Source of the DNA: a virus
Reading direction: 5' to 3' (one strand)
Virus record (IMG/VR): IMGVR_UViG_3300008012_000263
Location: 1-20,370 of that record
Length of the DNA: 20,370 bases
The notes beneath the pieces are model-generated. The model saw nothing but the letters and a program-made list of their open reading frames with translations, was not told the DNA's origin and made no database searches. Position 1 is the first letter of the stretch. Each line of letters starts with the position of its first letter. The position numbers and the translations under genes were made by a program. Positions 449 through 15,150 of this stretch are shown here, in pieces.

Positions 449-745
449 ATGCACCGCGTCACCGCCTTCAAATAAAAATAGGTCGCCCTTCGAGGGGCGT
501 GAAACTAAGAAAAAAGAAATACCCCCAGCCGCAGAATAACTCATATTCCAAGCAATCTGGGAGGGTCTGGGGTTTATTTTGTTTCCTTTTGCTATTTTTA
601 ACTCGACGAAACAGCAAGCCCCGTCATGGCACAAATGAACGTCAGGACAGCCCGAACCTGCGCGGTTTTCAATCCTCGTCGCATGGGTCTTCGGCGGCAG
701 TGATTTCTTTAATCGTGTCCATAGGTTGCGCTCTGGTGTCGGCAT
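350..745 (-). CDS. PD-(D/E)XK nuclease, VRR-NUC-like
   Basis: A 131-residue protein with the nuclease core in its first half: RIEN (Glu26), then GCPD (Asp35), then FVELK (Glu48 and Lys50), the G-x-P-D...E-x-K pattern of VRR-NUC and Holliday-junction-resolvase-like enzymes. Proteins of this size usually act on structured or branched DNA in replication, repair or packaging; the substrate here is inferred only. The ATG at 743-745 is preceded by GAGGAAG at good spacing, although it lies inside the terminase small-subunit gene. The two genes overlap by 77 bases in different frames and are probably translationally coupled. The 3' end is rich in CTTGCG repeats. A convergent hairpin at 279-305 lies just downstream. 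Confidence 0.78.
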   Translation of the reverse strand: MPTPERNLWTRLKKSLPPKTHATRIENRAGSGCPDVHLCHDGACCFVELKIAKGNKINPRPSQIAWNMSYSAAGGISFFLVSRPSKGDLFLFEGGDAVHLAACDLSNPDPRPVFRGTSLADCIACALRLAP

Positions 746-1262
746 CTTTCACTTCCTCAAACTCGCCCTCGATAAACGCGGCGGGGTGTTCTTGCCGCAA
801 GTTCTCAAGCTGGGCGACAATCTCCTCACGGCTCATGGCATCATACTTGTGAACGTGTTGGTTCTCGCGGCGGTCAACTGTCAGACCACCAAGCGAGGCG
901 CGTATCTTCTCGGCGTTGATGGCGGCGGAAAACTGTCCGCCTTCTTCAGCAGCAAGTGATAACTCGGTCAGACGTTTCAGCTGGCCTATCAAGCTCACAC
1001 CATACTTGCGCTCTTTCTCTTGACGGAGGTCGGCTATTAACTGGGGGACAAGTGGGAAGTCTCGCCCGTTCAAAAGTTTTGAGGCATACGTGTTCGCGCT
1101 ATCTTCCGAATACCCCGCACGGCGAGCGCATTCGGTGTTGGAGTAAACGCCTTCGACAATAAGCTTGGCAAACTCACGTTGCCGATTGCTCAAGCGGGTG
1201 CTTTTTCCTTCTTTCTCGTCGGAGGTGTTTACAGTCTGGTCATATAGACTATTTTTACTCAA
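669..1262 (-). CDS. terS: Terminase small subunit
   Basis: Basic N-terminal region SNRQREFAKLIVEG, then a helix-turn-helix-like stretch (TECARRAGYSEDSANTYASKL) typical of phage small terminases, which bind the packaging site and hand the DNA to the large subunit. A helical middle and an acidic C-terminus (EEFEEVKDAD, then DPCDED) follow. The frame is open back to a GTG at 1337, but a TTG at 1260-1262 has AAGGA seven bases upstream, so I choose it (197 residues). This start also leaves the TGTAAACAC repeats outside the gene, as expected for a control or packaging region. The PD-(D/E)XK nuclease gene begins inside the 3' end. No large terminase gene is visible in the window. Confidence 0.75.
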   Translation of the reverse strand: MSKNSLYDQTVNTSDEKEGKSTRLSNRQREFAKLIVEGVYSNTECARRAGYSEDSANTYASKLLNGRDFPLVPQLIADLRQEKERKYGVSLIGQLKRLTELSLAAEEGGQFSAAINAEKIRASLGGLTVDRRENQHVHKYDAMSREEIVAQLENLRQEHPAAFIEGEFEEVKDADTRAQPMDTIKEITAAEDPCDED

Positions 1263-1440
1263 CTCTAAATCCTTGTAATAAAAAGCAAATTGGTGCGCCC
1301 TCAAAGGGGCTAACTTTTTGTAAACACTTGTAAACACTTGGGTGTTTACAGATTACCTTAATAAAAACAACACTTTAAGCATGTTTTTCGCTCTGTAAAC
1401 AGTAAACACCTCAGCTGAAAAAGTTTTGGTGAAACACTTG
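1222..1440. repeat. Array of TGTAAACAC boxes, direct and inverted
   Basis: TGTAAACAC occurs at 1319-1327 and 1329-1337, a direct repeat one helical turn apart. It is inverted at 1342-1350 and at 1225-1233. Degenerate copies lie at 1394-1401 and 1401-1409, with a shortened one, TGAAACACTTG, at 1430-1440. Copies 1329-1337 and 1342-1350 form a perfect 9-bp inverted repeat around TTGG. GAGGTGTTTAC (1222-1232) is the exact reverse complement of 1402-1412. The array fills most of the stretch between terS (start 1262) and the next gene (end 1464). It could be a regulator operator, a replication iteron set or a terminase recognition site. Nothing else coding is seen in 1263-1463. Confidence 0.7.
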
Positions 1441-4135: not shown

Positions 4136-4290
4136 TGGACTACGAAAGAGCAGATGAGATTATGGAGGCAGTCATGACATTTGTTTATGACTACCTCAAA
4201 GATTTTCCCGACGAATTAGAAGACGCCATCGGCGCATACATCTCAGCATCAGATGTTGAGGAAGCATTTAGAAAGGTAAAGAACGGATGA
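4135..4290 (+). CDS. 51-residue acidic helical protein
   Basis: A GTG start at 4135, overlapping the previous TAG by one base, with AAGGAAG upstream. The product begins MDYERADEIMEAVMTFVYDY and runs through DELEDAIGAYISASDVEEAF to a TGA that overlaps the next ATG (ATGA at 4287-4290). Both junctions fit the coupling pattern of the operon, and the gene fills what would otherwise be a 150-base hole. It is acidic and mostly helical, with no recognisable family. Confidence 0.55.
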   Translation: MDYERADEIMEAVMTFVYDYLKDFPDELEDAIGAYISASDVEEAFRKVKNG

Positions 4291-4829
4291 GACCATCATG
4301 GATGAAGTTTACGCAAGTGTTGCAACACGAGTGGTGCGACAATGTTGAAGAGGCTGTGAAAGAAATCTCGGCAGAAGACGGCTTGATAGCCGGAGATAGA
4401 AAAGACGATACAATCCGCAAGTCTACGCATAAGTGGATAGACATACACGCTAACCAAGACATTGCGTATCCCGTCAAAAGTTTGATGGAGCAAGCTAACT
4501 CTGCGGAGTTCGGTTTTCATGCAACACTTTTGCACGAGTTGCAATATACCGTGTATAAGCGCGGGGACTTTTACTCAAACCACATGGACATGTTCCCCAT
4601 AAAATCCCCCGACGACCCAGTCTTCGACAGGAAGCTCGGCTGCACTATCATGCTGTCTGATCCCAAAAGTTTTTCTGGTGGTGAGTTGGTTATCATGGGT
4701 GAGGAGATACCTCTCGAACGTGGCTCAGTTGTTGTGTTCCCGTCCTTTGTCCCGCATGAAGTCAAACCCGTGAAGCGTGGAGTTCGCAAGGTTTTGGTTT
4801 CATGGTTGGAGGGCACCCCGTGGCAGTAA
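4287..4829 (+). CDS. 2-oxoglutarate/Fe(II)-dependent oxygenase
   Basis: 180 residues with the double-stranded beta-helix signature of the prolyl-4-hydroxylase/PiuC-type superfamily: YKRGDFYSNHMDMF gives the iron ligands His99 and Asp101, FPSFVPHEVKPV gives the distal His157, and Arg167 (GVRKVLVSWL) is placed to bind 2-oxoglutarate. SGGELVI lies between, as in the family. Such enzymes hydroxylate or demethylate proteins or nucleic-acid bases using O2; the phage substrate is unknown. The start overlaps the upstream TGA (ATGA). The 3' end overlaps the DnaA-domain gene by ten bases. Stand-alone enzymes of this type are common in marine phages. Confidence 0.85.
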   Translation: MRPSWMKFTQVLQHEWCDNVEEAVKEISAEDGLIAGDRKDDTIRKSTHKWIDIHANQDIAYPVKSLMEQANSAEFGFHATLLHELQYTVYKRGDFYSNHMDMFPIKSPDDPVFDRKLGCTIMLSDPKSFSGGELVIMGEEIPLERGSVVVFPSFVPHEVKPVKRGVRKVLVSWLEGTPWQ

Positions 4830-5155
4830 AGAAAGCTACCCTGAAGTCTTTGGCTGAAGCAACAGCTGAGGGCTTTCAGGTTTCTTACAGAGACTTAATG
4901 GGCAAGCACATGAAGGGCTACATCATCAAGCCTCGCCATTCGTTTTTCTACATCGCGCACAAGAAGGCTGGTCACAGCCTCTCTGATATTGGCCGGTTCA
5001 CTGGCAAGTGTCATACGACAGTCTTGTATGGCACCCGGAAGATGAAGCACCAAGTTTCACGTCGCGTGTCTGACGCGATTATAGACAGGGCGCAAGAGTT
5101 AGATGCCCAGAAGAAAGAGACCATTCGCAAGCTAGTAGAGGAGGGGTGGAAATGA
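4820..5155 (+). CDS. Stand-alone DnaA domain IV-like DNA-binding protein
   Basis: 111 residues. VSYRDLMGKH, then PRHSFFYIAHKKAGHSLSDI, then GRFTGKCHTTVLYGTRKM follow the C-terminal DNA-binding domain of DnaA: basic loop, helix-turn-helix, and the signature helix (GGRDHTTV in host DnaA, GKCHTTV at residues 62-68 here). The ATPase domain is absent. A GTG at 4820 with GGAGGG six bases upstream is preferred over an ATG at 4802. In DnaA this domain reads the 9-bp DnaA box. Here it could recognise phage or host boxes, or act as a repressor. I found no perfect TTATNCACA in the window by eye. It overlaps both neighbours. Confidence 0.8.
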   Translation: MAVKKATLKSLAEATAEGFQVSYRDLMGKHMKGYIIKPRHSFFYIAHKKAGHSLSDIGRFTGKCHTTVLYGTRKMKHQVSRRVSDAIIDRAQELDAQKKETIRKLVEEGWK

Positions 5156-5550
5156 TAGGCGAGGCATTGATGTGTATGGCTATGAACATTTACCACGAAG
5201 CTCGGAACGAAAGCACAATAGGCCAGCTTGCGGTTGGTCAGGTCGTGATGAACCGAGTTGAAGACCCGAGATTCCCGGACGATGTTTGCAGTGTCGTCAA
5301 GCAGGGCGGCACGAAACTTCATCGCTGTCAGTTCAGTTGGTATTGCGATGGCGAGTCGGACAGGCCGTTGAACAAAAGGGCTTTTCAGGAATCGCAAGAG
5401 AACGCCATGATTATAATGAACAACTGGTTCGGGACATTCATGGATGGGGCGACCCATTACCATGCTGATTATGTCAGTCCGAAGTGGCGTCATGAGAAGA
5501 CATATATTGTCAAGATTGACAGCCACATATTTTACAGGTGGGACAAATGA
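5152..5550 (+). CDS. SleB-type cell wall hydrolase (Hydrolase_2)
   Basis: 132 residues from the ATG at 5152, chosen over a GTG at 5146 because GAGGGG lies upstream and the start overlaps the previous TGA. NIYHEARNE (residues 12-20, catalytic Glu16), AVGQVVMNRV, then CQFSWYCDG and GATHYHADYVSPKW are the conserved blocks of the SleB/CwlJ lytic transglycosylase family, which cleaves the glycan backbone of peptidoglycan. No signal peptide or wall-binding domain is seen, so export would need a holin or another route. It lies in the early-type operon rather than the late block, where a second lytic enzyme (M15 peptidase) is found. Confidence 0.85.
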   Translation: MIGEALMCMAMNIYHEARNESTIGQLAVGQVVMNRVEDPRFPDDVCSVVKQGGTKLHRCQFSWYCDGESDRPLNKRAFQESQENAMIIMNNWFGTFMDGATHYHADYVSPKWRHEKTYIVKIDSHIFYRWDK

Positions 5551-6308: not shown

Positions 6309-6501
6309 AAATCCACCGCTGGTTTACATGCGGTCACGGGGGGATGGTAAAACACCCGACAAACAATATGTGGCTGAGATAGTCACAGTGTCTAGCGATG
6401 GCACAGCACAGATATGGCCTCTGTCCTTGCGGCAGGTGCTGAACATGACAATAATAGGATTAGGAGAAATGAACCGAAATGGAGTTATCAGTGACGAGTA
6501 A
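6292..6501 (+). CDS. Small hypothetical protein
   Basis: 69 residues from the ATG at 6292, preceded by GGAGG at 6281-6285; the same frame is open further upstream but has no convincing start there. MIPSIENPPLVYMRSRGDGK is followed by YVAEIVTVSSDGTAQIWPLS, a likely beta-hairpin, and a polar end. Function unknown. It overlaps the previous gene and the ribbon-helix-helix gene that follows. Confidence 0.55.
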   Translation: MIPSIENPPLVYMRSRGDGKTPDKQYVAEIVTVSSDGTAQIWPLSLRQVLNMTIIGLGEMNRNGVISDE

Positions 6502-6670
6502 GAAGGTTGGACGCCCACGCATATTTGACAAACGCGTGACACTGAGTTTTGATTTAGATAAATCGTTATATGATTTGTTGAACGCGGAGGCTGAAGCAAA
6601 GGGAACCAGCAAGAGTTCTATTTTGCGTCAGGCAATTAAAGAATATTTAACAATGGAGGATTTAGGATGA
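6491..6670 (+). CDS. Ribbon-helix-helix DNA-binding protein
   Basis: 59 residues from a GTG at 6491 with GGAG six bases upstream; an ATG at 6479 in the same frame is possible but more poorly spaced. KKVGRPRIFDKRVTLSFDLD gives a basic arm and beta strand, then KSLYDLLNAEAEAKGTSKSS and ILRQAIKEYL give the two helices of the CopG/MetJ/Arc fold. Such proteins bind DNA as dimers through the strand and usually act as repressors. As the next-to-last gene of the early operon it is a candidate regulator of the 1689-1753 promoters or of the replication operon. Confidence 0.75.
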   Translation: MTSKKVGRPRIFDKRVTLSFDLDKSLYDLLNAEAEAKGTSKSSILRQAIKEYLTMEDLG

Positions 6671-6894
6671 GATGGCCAAGCAGGGACGGTAGACTGTGGA
6701 CACCTTGGAAGGTGCAGGGTTTGGGGCTTTGGAGCAGGGGGCTACCGAAGTCCCCTGCATGTGACCCCGTCACTTGTGCTGAGTGTCCGGGTGGAGAAAG
6801 GTGCTGCAACTATGCACCACCTTCTCACCCTAGCGACGAAACAACATACGTTAGTTATGATGACGACGGATACCCTGCCCGTCGGAGGCGTTAG
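6667..6894 (+). CDS. Small Cys-rich protein, last gene of early operon
   Basis: 75 residues. Trp/Gly-rich and basic at first (WPSRDGRLWTPWKVQGLGLW), then CDPVTCAECPGGERCCNY, five cysteines in 15 residues that could bind a metal, and a basic end (ARRRR). The ATG overlaps the previous TGA and GGAGG lies upstream. The last 44 bases run over the 3' end of the minus-strand ribbon-helix-helix gene. No family recognised. Confidence 0.52.
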   Translation: MRWPSRDGRLWTPWKVQGLGLWSRGLPKSPACDPVTCAECPGGERCCNYAPPSHPSDETTYVSYDDDGYPARRRR

Positions 6895-7024
6895 CCTGAC
6901 TTGCCTGATGGATTAGAAAACTAATCTGTCGGGCAATGCTTCGCTCATTTTCTTTTGCCAATCGTTTTACCGATTCATATGCCTCAATCGGCAAGGCAAC
7001 ACTTTTATACTTTGTAGTATCCAT
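6851..7024 (-). CDS. Second ribbon-helix-helix protein, Arc-like
   Basis: 57 residues, easily overlooked for its length. KYKSVALPIEAYESVKRLA, then ENERSIARQISFLIHQAS and a basic His/Arg tail, show the strand plus two helices of the Arc/CopG class. AGGA lies about seven bases before the ATG at 7022-7024, inside the last codons of the SNF2 helicase gene, whose stop ends one base away. It is therefore co-transcribed with the helicase and may control the divergent 8.5-kb promoter region. It is antisense to the end of the + strand early operon and carries that operon's hairpin on its opposite strand. Confidence 0.68.
   Translation of the reverse strand: MDTTKYKSVALPIEAYESVKRLAKENERSIARQISFLIHQASQANASDGQGIRRHHN
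6901..6936 (+). terminator. 16-bp hairpin with AAAA loop, likely early-operon terminator
   Basis: Bases 6901-6916 pair with 6921-6936 without a gap: 13 Watson-Crick pairs and three G-U pairs that are valid only in the + strand RNA (they become A-C in the other strand). The loop is AAAA. T-rich sequence follows (ATTTTCTTTT ending about 6956). It begins six bases after the last + strand stop and lies inside the antisense ribbon-helix-helix gene. The T-run is interrupted, so read-through is possible. Confidence 0.62.
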
Positions 7025-8474: not shown

Positions 8475-8497
8475 GATTTATCCCTGAAAAAATGTAG

Positions 8498-8533
8498 TTG
8501 ACATGGGATAGCATGGTCTATATACGTAGTCAA
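8498..8533. promoter_or_regulatory. Overlapping divergent promoters for replication operon and SNF2 gene
   Basis: On the + strand, a perfect TTGACA (8498-8503) is followed after 17 bases by TATACG (or after 15 by TATATA), a good candidate for the replication operon starting at 8674. On the minus strand, TTGACT (complement of 8528-8533) is followed after 17 bases by TATCCC, a weaker candidate for the helicase starting at 8474. The two overlap, so they may compete. Boxes were judged by eye. Confidence 0.55.
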
Positions 8534-8580
8534 GTCATTCAGTTTTTGCTTAGGGGTAAGTTCTCGAAATTGAATGATGG

Positions 8581-8619
8581 TAGCGGGGCAGTTTTCGAGG
8601 ATGGTTAGCTGCCCCGTTA
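8581..8619 (+). promoter_or_regulatory. Structured 5' leader hairpin of replication operon
   Basis: CGGGGCAG (8584-8591) pairs perfectly with CTGCCCCG (8609-8616). The stem extends outward with TAG/TTA (one G-U pair) to 11 bp around a 17-base loop. No T-run follows, so it is not a typical terminator; it more likely sits in the mRNA leader between the 8.5-kb promoter and the AGAAGGAG ribosome binding site at 8660-8667. An AAGCCGACGGG element follows at 8626-8636. The rest of 8475-8673 holds no gene. Confidence 0.55.
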
Positions 8620-8673
8620 CACCCAAAGCCGACGGGCTATAAACGGGAACGTAGAAACTAGAAGGAGTGTCCA

Positions 8674-10115: not shown

Positions 10116-11648
10116 ATGGAAAACATTCAGAGGTTCATGGCTTTGTTCAAAGGGTTTGAACAAGCACATGGACAGACTATAATAAAAGGAACACGCAAAA
10201 GCGGCAAAGAAGAGGCCGACAGTCGTGTTATACGAACTCCTTTAGACGAAGGACACATAGAAAAACATTTTGATGGGGCTGTAGGTGCAGGATCGATTCC
10301 AATCAATGCTGATAATAATTGCCGATTCGGCTGCATTGACGTGGACGTTTACCCTCTTGATCACGGGAGTATTGTTGATGAGTGCAACTCTCGTGGCATC
10401 CCTGCTGTTGTTTGTCGTTCTAAATCTGGTGGTGCTCACGTCTACTTTTTTATCGACGGTATACTCAGTGCTACGGACATGCGCGACAAACTCGGAGAGA
10501 TTGCCGCGTGTCTTGGCTATGGTTCGTCAGAGATTTTCCCGAAACAAGAAAAACTATTAGTCGAACGCGGCGACGTAGGGAACTTTATAAACCTTCCATA
10601 CTTTGATGGTGACCGGACACTGCGTCCGGCTTACGACGACAAAGCTAAAGAGTTGTCGTTGGAAGAGTTCTTGGACTATGCGGAAAGCAAGCGCACACCG
10701 CCGGGTGAGTTCATGGATTTGCAGCTAGGCACTAGCACAGAGTTCATGCCGGAGTGTCCACCGTGCCTTGTGACTTTGACAACCATGGGTATTGGTGAGG
10801 GTCTCCGTAACGAGACGATGTTTAATGTCGGCGTGATGTATCAGAAGATGGATCCCGACAACTGGAGGAGTTTGCTAGAGCAACACAACGCGCAGTATGT
10901 TTCGCCTCCGCTACCTGCCGCCGAGATTGTGCAGCTGCAGCAAACGCTGGAAAAGAAAGAGTATCAATACGGCTGTAAGAAGGCACCGCTTCAAGATTAC
11001 TGCAACAAGTCTCTCTGCTTACAGCGCAAGTATGGCGTAGGTAATGGCAACGGCCAGTCTTTGGAAATCACGGGCATGAGTGTCGTGTTGTCCGAGCCGC
11101 GTGTCTGGTTTGTGGATATCGGTGGTGAGCGTTTGGAGCTGACCAGTGAAGAGGTTCAGATCCAGCAGAAGTTTGGCCGGGCGTGTCTTGACCAGCTAGG
11201 CTGGTTGCCGCCAATCGTAAAGCAGTCGGACTGGACAACTATGATGAATCTTGCCTTGCAAGAGTGCATGAAGATTGAGGTTCCGCCGGAACTAACAAAC
11301 AGAGGCCAGTTCACAGACTTACTTGAGTCATTCTGCACAGGTAGGGTGCAAGCAATGTCTCCAGAGGAATTGATATTAGGTAAGCCTTTCACGGAAGAAG
11401 GCGAGGTGTTCTTCAAGTTGGATGCACTCATGGACTACATGAAGGCAAAGAACTTTACGCAATACACACGTGGTCAGGTGCAGGAGCGTCTGAAAGAACT
11501 AAACAACGGCAGTTCTTCTAGTCACGTTAAATCGTTTCGTGACAAGGCTGGTAAACCCAAAGCAGTGCGCGTTTGGTCTGTGCCGGAGTTTCAAGCAGAT
11601 GTTGATTTACCACATGCAGACATAGCCGGAGAAGGAGTTCCGTTTTGA
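10116..11648 (+). CDS. Archaeo-eukaryotic-type primase (AEP), TOTE-like
   Basis: 510 residues. The primase-polymerase core is in the first 200: FGCIDVDVYP supplies the metal ligands Asp75 and Asp77, RSKSGGAHVYFF supplies His108, and SSEIFPKQEKLLVERGDVGN then FINLPYFDG are typical of the primase of TOTE-type systems. A helical PriCT-like part follows (GLRNETMFNVGVMYQKMDPD), then YGCKKAPLQDYCNKSLCLQ, a Cys cluster that may bind metal. The C-terminal third is unassigned, and the protein ends GEGVPF. It would make primers for the polymerase encoded downstream. No helicase domain is fused to it; the helicase is the next gene, whose TTG overlaps its stop. Confidence 0.82.
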   Translation: MENIQRFMALFKGFEQAHGQTIIKGTRKSGKEEADSRVIRTPLDEGHIEKHFDGAVGAGSIPINADNNCRFGCIDVDVYPLDHGSIVDECNSRGIPAVVCRSKSGGAHVYFFIDGILSATDMRDKLGEIAACLGYGSSEIFPKQEKLLVERGDVGNFINLPYFDGDRTLRPAYDDKAKELSLEEFLDYAESKRTPPGEFMDLQLGTSTEFMPECPPCLVTLTTMGIGEGLRNETMFNVGVMYQKMDPDNWRSLLEQHNAQYVSPPLPAAEIVQLQQTLEKKEYQYGCKKAPLQDYCNKSLCLQRKYGVGNGNGQSLEITGMSVVLSEPRVWFVDIGGERLELTSEEVQIQQKFGRACLDQLGWLPPIVKQSDWTTMMNLALQECMKIEVPPELTNRGQFTDLLESFCTGRVQAMSPEELILGKPFTEEGEVFFKLDALMDYMKAKNFTQYTRGQVQERLKELNNGSSSSHVKSFRDKAGKPKAVRVWSVPEFQADVDLPHADIAGEGVPF

Positions 11649-13201: not shown

Positions 13202-15150
13202 AAAAAGATCAGATGTCGTTCGACGCGAAACTAACTGGCGTATTGCCTGATGAAGATATTCGTGAGGTAGCCTCTATCGCTTTGGATCAGGACTGGACAC
13301 CACCGACAAGTTTTCCAGACCACTATAAAACAGCAAACATTATCTCGATTGACTTGGAAACAAGAGATCCGAACCTGATGACCTTGGGGCCGGGCTGGTG
13401 TCGTGACGATGGCTACATCGTTGGTTTCGCTGTCGCTTTCAATGACTTCGTTGGATACTACCCTATCCGCCACGAAGGCGGCGGCAATATGCCTGAACGT
13501 GCGGTTCTGTCATACATAAAAGAGCTGATGGCCTCCGATGTTCCAAAGGTTATGCACAACGCACAGTATGATTTGGGCTGGCTTCGTTGGGCTGGTATCG
13601 AGGTAAACGGAAAAGTATACGACACAATGATCGCAGCTGCCATGTTGAATGAAAACAGGCGTTGGTATAATCTAAACTCTTTGGCTCGAGACTATTTACA
13701 AGAAGGTAAAAGCGAGCGTTTACTTAAACTGGCTGCAGCGGACTACGGGGTAGACCCCAAGGCGGATATGTGGCGACTGCCCTCTCGCTTTGTTGGCCAG
13801 TATGCTGAGCAGGACGCAGCAGTTACCCGACGCTTGTGGGATCGTCTGCAGCCTGACCTGATTTCGGAAGAAGTCACCAGCATCTTCGAACTCGAGACAG
13901 CCCTTACACCAATGCTCAACGACATGCGTTGGCGCGGGGTTCGTGTGGATGAAGAAGCAGCCGGGAAAGCCCGTGAACTTTTGATGGAAAAAGAGCAGGG
14001 TATTCTAAAACATATTAAAGCCGAGACAAATATCTGGGTTGAGCCTTGGAACGCTACGTCCATTGCACAAGTGTTTGACAGCCTCGAGCTTAGTTATCCG
14101 CGCACAGAGAAGACAGAAGCTCCGAGTTTCACGAAGCAGTTTTTGGGAGCACATGAGCACCCTATCGCGAAACAAGTTGTCCGGTTACGCGAACTAAACA
14201 AAGCTAACACCACGTTTATCGAAAACATTTTGAAGTTCTCCCACAAGGGTAGGATTCATGCGGAGTTCCACGCGTTGCGTAGCGACGATGGTGGTACGGT
14301 CACGGGTCGGTTTTCCTCCTCGAACCCCAACCTTCAGCAGATACCGGCTCGTGACCCAGAAATTAAAGCGCTTATCCGGGGCTTGTTTGTTCCCGAAGAA
14401 GGCGAGAAGTGGGGCAGCTTTGACTACGCGTCACAAGAGCCGCGCTGGTTGGCGCACTATTGCGCGTCGATTACAGGGGTGCATCGGCACCCAAGCATTG
14501 ATGATGTTGTTGAACGCTACGAGGCAGACGATGCCGACTTCCACCAAATGGTAGCTGACATTGCGGGTATCTCTCGTAAAGACGCTAAGACCGTAAACCT
14601 TGGTATTATGTATGGCATGGGCGTCAACAAGATGGCTGGTGTCTTGGACGTTACTGTCCCCGAAGCCAAGGAACTTTTGTCTGAGTATCACAACCGTGTC
14701 CCGTTTGTTAAGGGACTTGCTACCATGACGCAGACACACGCAGAAAAAAACGGCGTCATCAGAACCGTCCTTGGCCGTAAGTGTCGCTTTGATATGTGGG
14801 AGCCGAAGACGTTCGGCATTCATCGCCCGTTGCCTCTCGAGGAAGCTCAAAAAGAATACGGACGTCAGGGTATCAAGCGAGCCTTCACGTACAAGGCTCT
14901 TAACCGTTTGATCCAAGGAACAAGTGCCGACCAGACTAAGAAAGCAATGCTTGATTGTTACGACGCTGGTTACTTACCCATGCTGCAGGTGCACGACGAG
15001 CTTTGCTTTAGTGTCGATGTAGACGAGCAAGGCAATCCTGACGAAGAACAAATACAGGAAATTGCCTCCATAATGGAAAATGCAGTTGAAGCAAAAGTAC
15101 CGTTTAAGGTAGACTGTGCTATCGCTGACAACTGGGGTCAAGTGGACTAA
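13198..15150 (+). CDS. polA: Family A DNA polymerase with 3'-5' exonuclease
   Basis: 650 residues from the ATG at 13198, which overlaps the helicase TGA (ATGA) and has GGAG upstream. Exonuclease: ISIDLETRD (Asp52, Glu54), VMHNAQYDLGWL, and YAEQDAAV. Polymerase: TGRFSSSNPNLQQIPARDP, motif A FDYASQEPR (Asp409, Glu414, Arg416), motif B RKDAKTVNLGIMYG (Arg460, Lys464, Tyr472), motif C LQVHDEL (His599, Asp600). The 5' nuclease domain of bacterial Pol I is absent, as usual in phages. Motif A departs from DYSQIELR at four positions, and Leu468 replaces E. coli Phe762. It is the likely replicative polymerase. Confidence 0.95.
   Translation: MKKDQMSFDAKLTGVLPDEDIREVASIALDQDWTPPTSFPDHYKTANIISIDLETRDPNLMTLGPGWCRDDGYIVGFAVAFNDFVGYYPIRHEGGGNMPERAVLSYIKELMASDVPKVMHNAQYDLGWLRWAGIEVNGKVYDTMIAAAMLNENRRWYNLNSLARDYLQEGKSERLLKLAAADYGVDPKADMWRLPSRFVGQYAEQDAAVTRRLWDRLQPDLISEEVTSIFELETALTPMLNDMRWRGVRVDEEAAGKARELLMEKEQGILKHIKAETNIWVEPWNATSIAQVFDSLELSYPRTEKTEAPSFTKQFLGAHEHPIAKQVVRLRELNKANTTFIENILKFSHKGRIHAEFHALRSDDGGTVTGRFSSSNPNLQQIPARDPEIKALIRGLFVPEEGEKWGSFDYASQEPRWLAHYCASITGVHRHPSIDDVVERYEADDADFHQMVADIAGISRKDAKTVNLGIMYGMGVNKMAGVLDVTVPEAKELLSEYHNRVPFVKGLATMTQTHAEKNGVIRTVLGRKCRFDMWEPKTFGIHRPLPLEEAQKEYGRQGIKRAFTYKALNRLIQGTSADQTKKAMLDCYDAGYLPMLQVHDELCFSVDVDEQGNPDEEQIQEIASIMENAVEAKVPFKVDCAIADNWGQVD

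Follow-up and report, generated by a model that had tools for sequence, protein, structure and literature searches.

Domain IV, the DNA-binding domain of the bacterial initiator DnaA, is known in complex with DNA from the E. coli (1J1V) and M. tuberculosis (3PVP) proteins. Its base-reading residues at the DnaA box are reported to be R399, P423, D433, H434, T435 and H439 (PMC7561715, citing Fujikawa 2003). Phage and prophage proteins that inhibit DnaA by different routes have also been described: lambda P binds domain III of DnaA, and YfdR binds domains I-II (PMC4776307). In addition, domain IV is encoded by phages as a protein of its own. Many uncultured Caudovirales entries in the structure library carry the UniProt name ‘Chromosomal replication initiator, DnaA C-terminal’, and a profile-guided scan of IMG/VR identified 80 viral domain-IV loci. 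When classified by the length preceding the domain and the lack of a Walker motif, 57 of these were stand-alone, most of them 95-200 aa long. Such proteins, which include those of Caudovirales, of ctOK67 (MW202613) and of Bradyrhizobium phage ppBjS10J-1, are phage-encoded, contain domain IV only and mostly have 90-200 aa. The genes adjoining them match primosomal, replication-initiation, helicase and methyltransferase families, and in ctOK67 the neighbor is a putative replisome organizer. Several of the adjoining genes at IMG/VR loci L090-L168 match primosomal protein families, and four match the GapR DNA-binding domain. In the open-licence literature searched, no paper reporting a functional study of a phage stand-alone DnaA domain IV was found. 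Phage-encoded DnaA domain IV lacking an ATPase recurs and has already been annotated; it is not a new kind of protein, though seemingly an unstudied one.

The locus analysed here lies in a window of 20,370 bases that corresponds to a whole IMG/VR record. An open frame at positions 4820-5155 (+) codes for a 111-aa protein; its coordinates and frame were as given in the earlier note. The listed ORF begins at an ATG at 4802, and the GTG at 4820 is an alternative start within it. This GTG is the likely start, since a GGAGG ribosome site lies about 8 bases upstream. The first 10 bases of the gene overlap the 3′-end of a gene for a 2OG-Fe(II) oxygenase (4287..4829, +; PF13640, 2.7e-14), with which it probably forms one transcription unit. 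At its own 3′-end, the gene overlaps by 10 bases a gene coding for a cell wall hydrolase of the Hydrolase_2 type (5146..5550, +; PF07486, 1.5e-25). The DnaA-like gene and the hydrolase gene both belong to an operon of small genes. A location beside replication-initiation or primosomal genes, common but not defining among stand-alone domain-IV genes, was not found: about 3.5 kb separate the gene from the phage's replication operon. That operon includes an archaeo-eukaryotic-type primase (AEP-TOTE match; 10116-11648), which is common to phages of the HTVC023P group and to Acinetobacter phages.

The earlier note had proposed that this gene encodes a DnaA domain IV without an ATPase, and sequence, synteny and fold all bore this out. 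The protein matched PF08299 (Bac_DnaA_C) with an E-value of 6.1e-14 and 52.2 bits (cut-off 31.5), over profile positions 4-68 of 69. Its best PDB sequence match by phmmer was 1j1v, the E. coli DnaA domain IV-DNA complex (1.1e-7). The NCBIfam profile for the whole DnaA initiator (TIGR00362) aligned only at positions 344-421 of 437 and scored 47 bits (cut-off 344), so that the protein is not a whole DnaA. No AAA+ module, nor domain III with Walker motifs, was found anywhere in the ORF. An AlphaFold2 model built on a 62-sequence alignment reached a pLDDT of 95.6 and a pTM of 0.86 (a two-sequence alignment had yielded a pLDDT of only 45). Comparison of the predicted structure with DnaA domain IV, a check that had been named beforehand, gave as top solved folds the DNA-bound domains 3pvp (Z 13.7) and 1j1v (Z 13.2); other DnaA structures came next, and the first non-DnaA rows appeared only at Z 5-6. 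The domain assignment rests on both the whole-domain profile match and the domain IV fold with its helix-turn-helix. The similarity is far above chance, and the identity of the domain, its fold and the missing AAA+ module are confirmed.

The phage protein and the two bacterial domains share a common fold of about 90 residues (rmsd 2.0-2.1) and the signature SL..IG..F..HTTV, in which H434, T435 and T436 are kept. The segments SLSDIGRFTG, GKCH and HTTV are present as previously described, and the helix-turn-helix spans residues 54-74. The phage protein differs in not being joined to domains I-III, in having a long C-terminal helix (residues 81-107 of the model) and in carrying the changes R399M, P423S, R432K, D433C and H439Y. 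It shares the architecture of the stand-alone class, a phage-encoded domain IV without AAA+. Most other members, however, carry 60-100 residues ahead of the domain and have the canonical set of base-reading residues; their genes are often neighbors of primosomal or initiation genes.

Inspection of related genomes identified IMGVR_UViG_3300030012_002328 (about 56.8 kb; hereafter G001), itself among the 57 stand-alone loci, as the closest relative found. A terminal direct repeat of 101 bp, matching at 100 of 101 bases, suggests that G001 is probably a complete genome, and the 20,370-base record is apparently a fragment of a larger one. PolA of the two phages shows 83% identity, and most of their gene order agrees, while the polA of cultured relatives, including Pelagibacter phages HTVC023P and HTVC027P, shows 46-52% identity. 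The source is a marine-type tailed phage whose genome measures about 57 kb and which is a distant relative of the HTVC023P group. G001 contains the DnaA-like gene in the syntenic position (65% identical), again followed by the cell wall hydrolase, and a distant relative of the oxygenase elsewhere (25287-25811; 27% identity). A viral protein of 109 aa in UniProt, A0A516KZ80, is 66% identical to the phage protein (TM-score 0.92), forms one subfamily with it and may belong to G001's own lineage.

Beyond this, the gene was scarce. Among polA-related records (44 searched whole, many of them fragments), G001 was the only one with a DnaA-like gene, and the same was true of 33 terS-related loci in which the helicase gene delimiting the interval was partly or fully present. 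The hydrolase gene was not found in most relatives and is present in G001 and L184; L184 keeps it and lacks the DnaA-like gene. Viral scans with the single protein and with a two-sequence query detected no relatives besides G001. Weak matches in L218 and in L003/L192 were inspected or judged to be chance, and plasmid records gave weak matches only, many of them within DnaA genes of chromosome-like records. The DnaA-like gene has the appearance of an accessory gene in a single small lineage.

This restricted distribution, together with the four changed base-reading residues, would fit a domain IV that, once captured, had lost these residues and its DNA binding and was now decaying as a remnant. 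The comparison with G001 argues against it. The two copies differ at 29, 28 and 60 nucleotides at codon positions 1, 2 and 3, respectively, third-position changes being twice those elsewhere; dN is 0.29 and dS is saturated. Conservation is highest in the helix-turn-helix, with 26 of 28 residues identical, versus 28 of 49 in the preceding and 17 of 34 in the following segment, and the fold is predicted with confidence. The gene is real, is not drifting freely and is under purifying selection, and decay is very improbable. The fact that the helix-turn-helix is kept more than its flanks suggests that the altered reading surface is under constraint.

At the positions of the six base-reading residues, both this phage and G001 have M, S, C, H, T and Y. 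Two of the six are therefore kept and four changed (R399M, P423S, D433C and H439Y), a departure from the canonical set not seen elsewhere: in the other 79 viral domain-IV sequences, all six residues were kept in 57, one was changed in 17 and two in five, and none had more than two changes. D433 was kept in all 79. In the alignment, M. tuberculosis DnaA has K399 and Y439, so changes at these two positions alone need not abolish reading of the box; the S at 423 and the C at 433 are more telling. Since the altered reading surface is itself conserved, a conserved, non-canonical target site is inferred, and the protein of this phage and G001 probably reads a DNA sequence other than the usual DnaA site.

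The DnaA boxes themselves were consistent with chance. A perfect TTATGCACA lies at 13550 (+), within polA, with 0.8 expected by chance in the window; the earlier statement that the window holds no perfect TTATNCACA was wrong, although the number found is that predicted by chance. The G001 genome has no such perfect sequence, and no box excess was detected in the window or in G001. The same holds for other phages: about 400 kb around stand-alone genes contained 11 TTWTNCACA sequences versus 9.8 expected and two TTATCCACA versus 0.4 expected, which is no clear excess, and none was clear in two whole phage records with canonical stand-alone proteins. A self-target is thus not demonstrated for the stand-alone class.

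These data bear on the suggestion, made in the earlier note, that the protein might block or redirect host initiation. It would do so by occupying DnaA boxes at the host oriC or at DnaA-regulated promoters and, being incapable of forming ATP filaments, by competing with host DnaA. The DnaA-like gene lies among small genes of a kind often acting on the host, and the other stand-alone proteins, canonical and with no box excess near their genes, would suit a host target. Lambda P and YfdR would provide precedents with a comparable outcome, although both bind the DnaA protein and belong to families unrelated to the DnaA-like protein. However, R399, P423, D433 and H439 are all changed in this lineage, and the helix-turn-helix is otherwise preserved. 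With four of six base-reading residues altered, D433 included, blocking of canonical boxes at the host oriC is not favoured, and the lack of a box excess in the window and in G001 likewise offered the suggestion no backing. Host takeover is possible but rather unlikely, and simple occupation of host DnaA boxes is not supported by the residues present.

Of the targets considered earlier, one within the phage and with a sequence unlike the usual box is favoured. The explanation tentatively preferred, at somewhat less than an even chance, is that the protein is a retargeted, ATP-independent DNA binder whose targets lie in the phage's own genome. Domain IV alone would bind double-stranded DNA sequence-specifically, without ATP or filament formation; the site recognized would differ from TTATNCACA; and, on phage DNA, the protein would serve as a local regulator or as a mark for an origin or for assembly, and not as an occupant of the host oriC. 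A role on phage DNA fits the frequent location of such genes beside replication-initiation or primosomal genes in other phages. Against it, the gene of this phage sits outside the replication module.

A rival proposal is that the protein is a transcription regulator that times early or late genes from a single phage promoter or a small number of them, such as those at 8475-8673 or at about 1690-1750. Both regions lie between divergent genes, and DnaA is itself described as a transcription factor (PMC8203912). The first, a second candidate target, is a divergent promoter-like region with TTGACA and TATATA elements (8475..8673; aligned with G001, L003 and L005), and its promoter-like core is conserved with G001. 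This core is, however, partly kept in L003, whose record lacks the DnaA-like gene, and two ribbon-helix-helix proteins of the window are equally good candidates for such a role; the proposal is considered unlikely. The ribbon-helix-helix proteins, encoded at 6479-6670 (+; RHH_1, 4.6e-08) and 6851-7024 (-; RHH_5, 1.8e-07), are likely phage regulators. The 8475-8673 region is located between a SNF2-type helicase gene and the replication operon; besides the TTGACA...TATATA core, an inverted repeat, GCGGGGCAG/CTGCCCCGTTAC, is conserved with G001.

For the retargeted binder, a candidate site emerged when the window and G001 were scanned without bias for clusters of 7- and 8-mers. The top cluster in both phages was formed by GTGTTTACA/TGTTTAC iterons, with six copies in the window (1225..1410) and seven in G001 (51043-51290; L085:11043-11290), upstream of the gene for the terminase small subunit (terS; 669..1337, -; phrog_51, 3.6e-13, and alignments). 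The true terS start is probably internal to this listed ORF. Of the DnaA box, GTGTTTACA preserves T2, T4 and the terminal ACA; positions 1, 3 and 6 are different. No GTGTTTACA array was seen in the other relatives examined. At the corresponding place, the arrays of L175 and L176 are built of other units (GTGTCCGGA; GTGTGACGA), and neither has the DnaA-like gene.

Arrays at this place proved widespread. When an array was considered significant if its 7-mer count upstream of terS exceeded that in all 40 shuffles, 46 of 77 terS loci had one, including L172 and L173 of this lineage. Among the loci of other lineages, 44 of 75 had a significant array of other sequence, and in these 44 no DnaA-like gene was seen in the stretch examined. 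The units differ by lineage (TGATACA, TGTAACA, TGGAACA, TGAGACA) and mostly have a period of 8-9 bp; the period in the lineage of the window is 10 bp. Fixed-place arrays upstream of terS were observed in marine-type phages such as L175, L179, L184, L199, L214, L224 and L252, and GTCCGGA and GTAGTGA are further lineage-specific units beside GTGTTTACA. Because relatives have arrays without a DnaA-like gene in the stretch examined, the array does not require the protein, and the iterons could not be upheld as its clear target. The co-occurrence of array and gene represents one evolutionary event, since both carriers are sister phages. TerS as the sole reader of the iterons was weakened as well: identical TerS recognition helices accompany different units, CGTTACA in L210/L222 versus TGAGACA in L256, and also in L239/L251/L252. 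The early region of nine relatives contained no replacement helix-turn-helix protein, only two ribbon-helix-helix matches. The array might be a packaging site, an origin or an operator. The GTGTTTACA iterons are the best single candidate site of the DnaA-like protein, although the link is unproven, and it is quite improbable that a captured domain IV was re-tooled for them as an ATP-free specificity factor for an origin or packaging site.

Genes for a stand-alone DnaA domain IV are common among phages. What is unusual in this lineage is that four base-reading residues have changed, D433 among them. Since these were altered jointly and the helix-turn-helix otherwise remained fixed, the lineage is well suited to testing cleanly whether the reading head of DnaA can be retargeted. 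If a new site is indeed read, the DNA reader of a bacterial initiator would be usable as a free-standing module for phage control.
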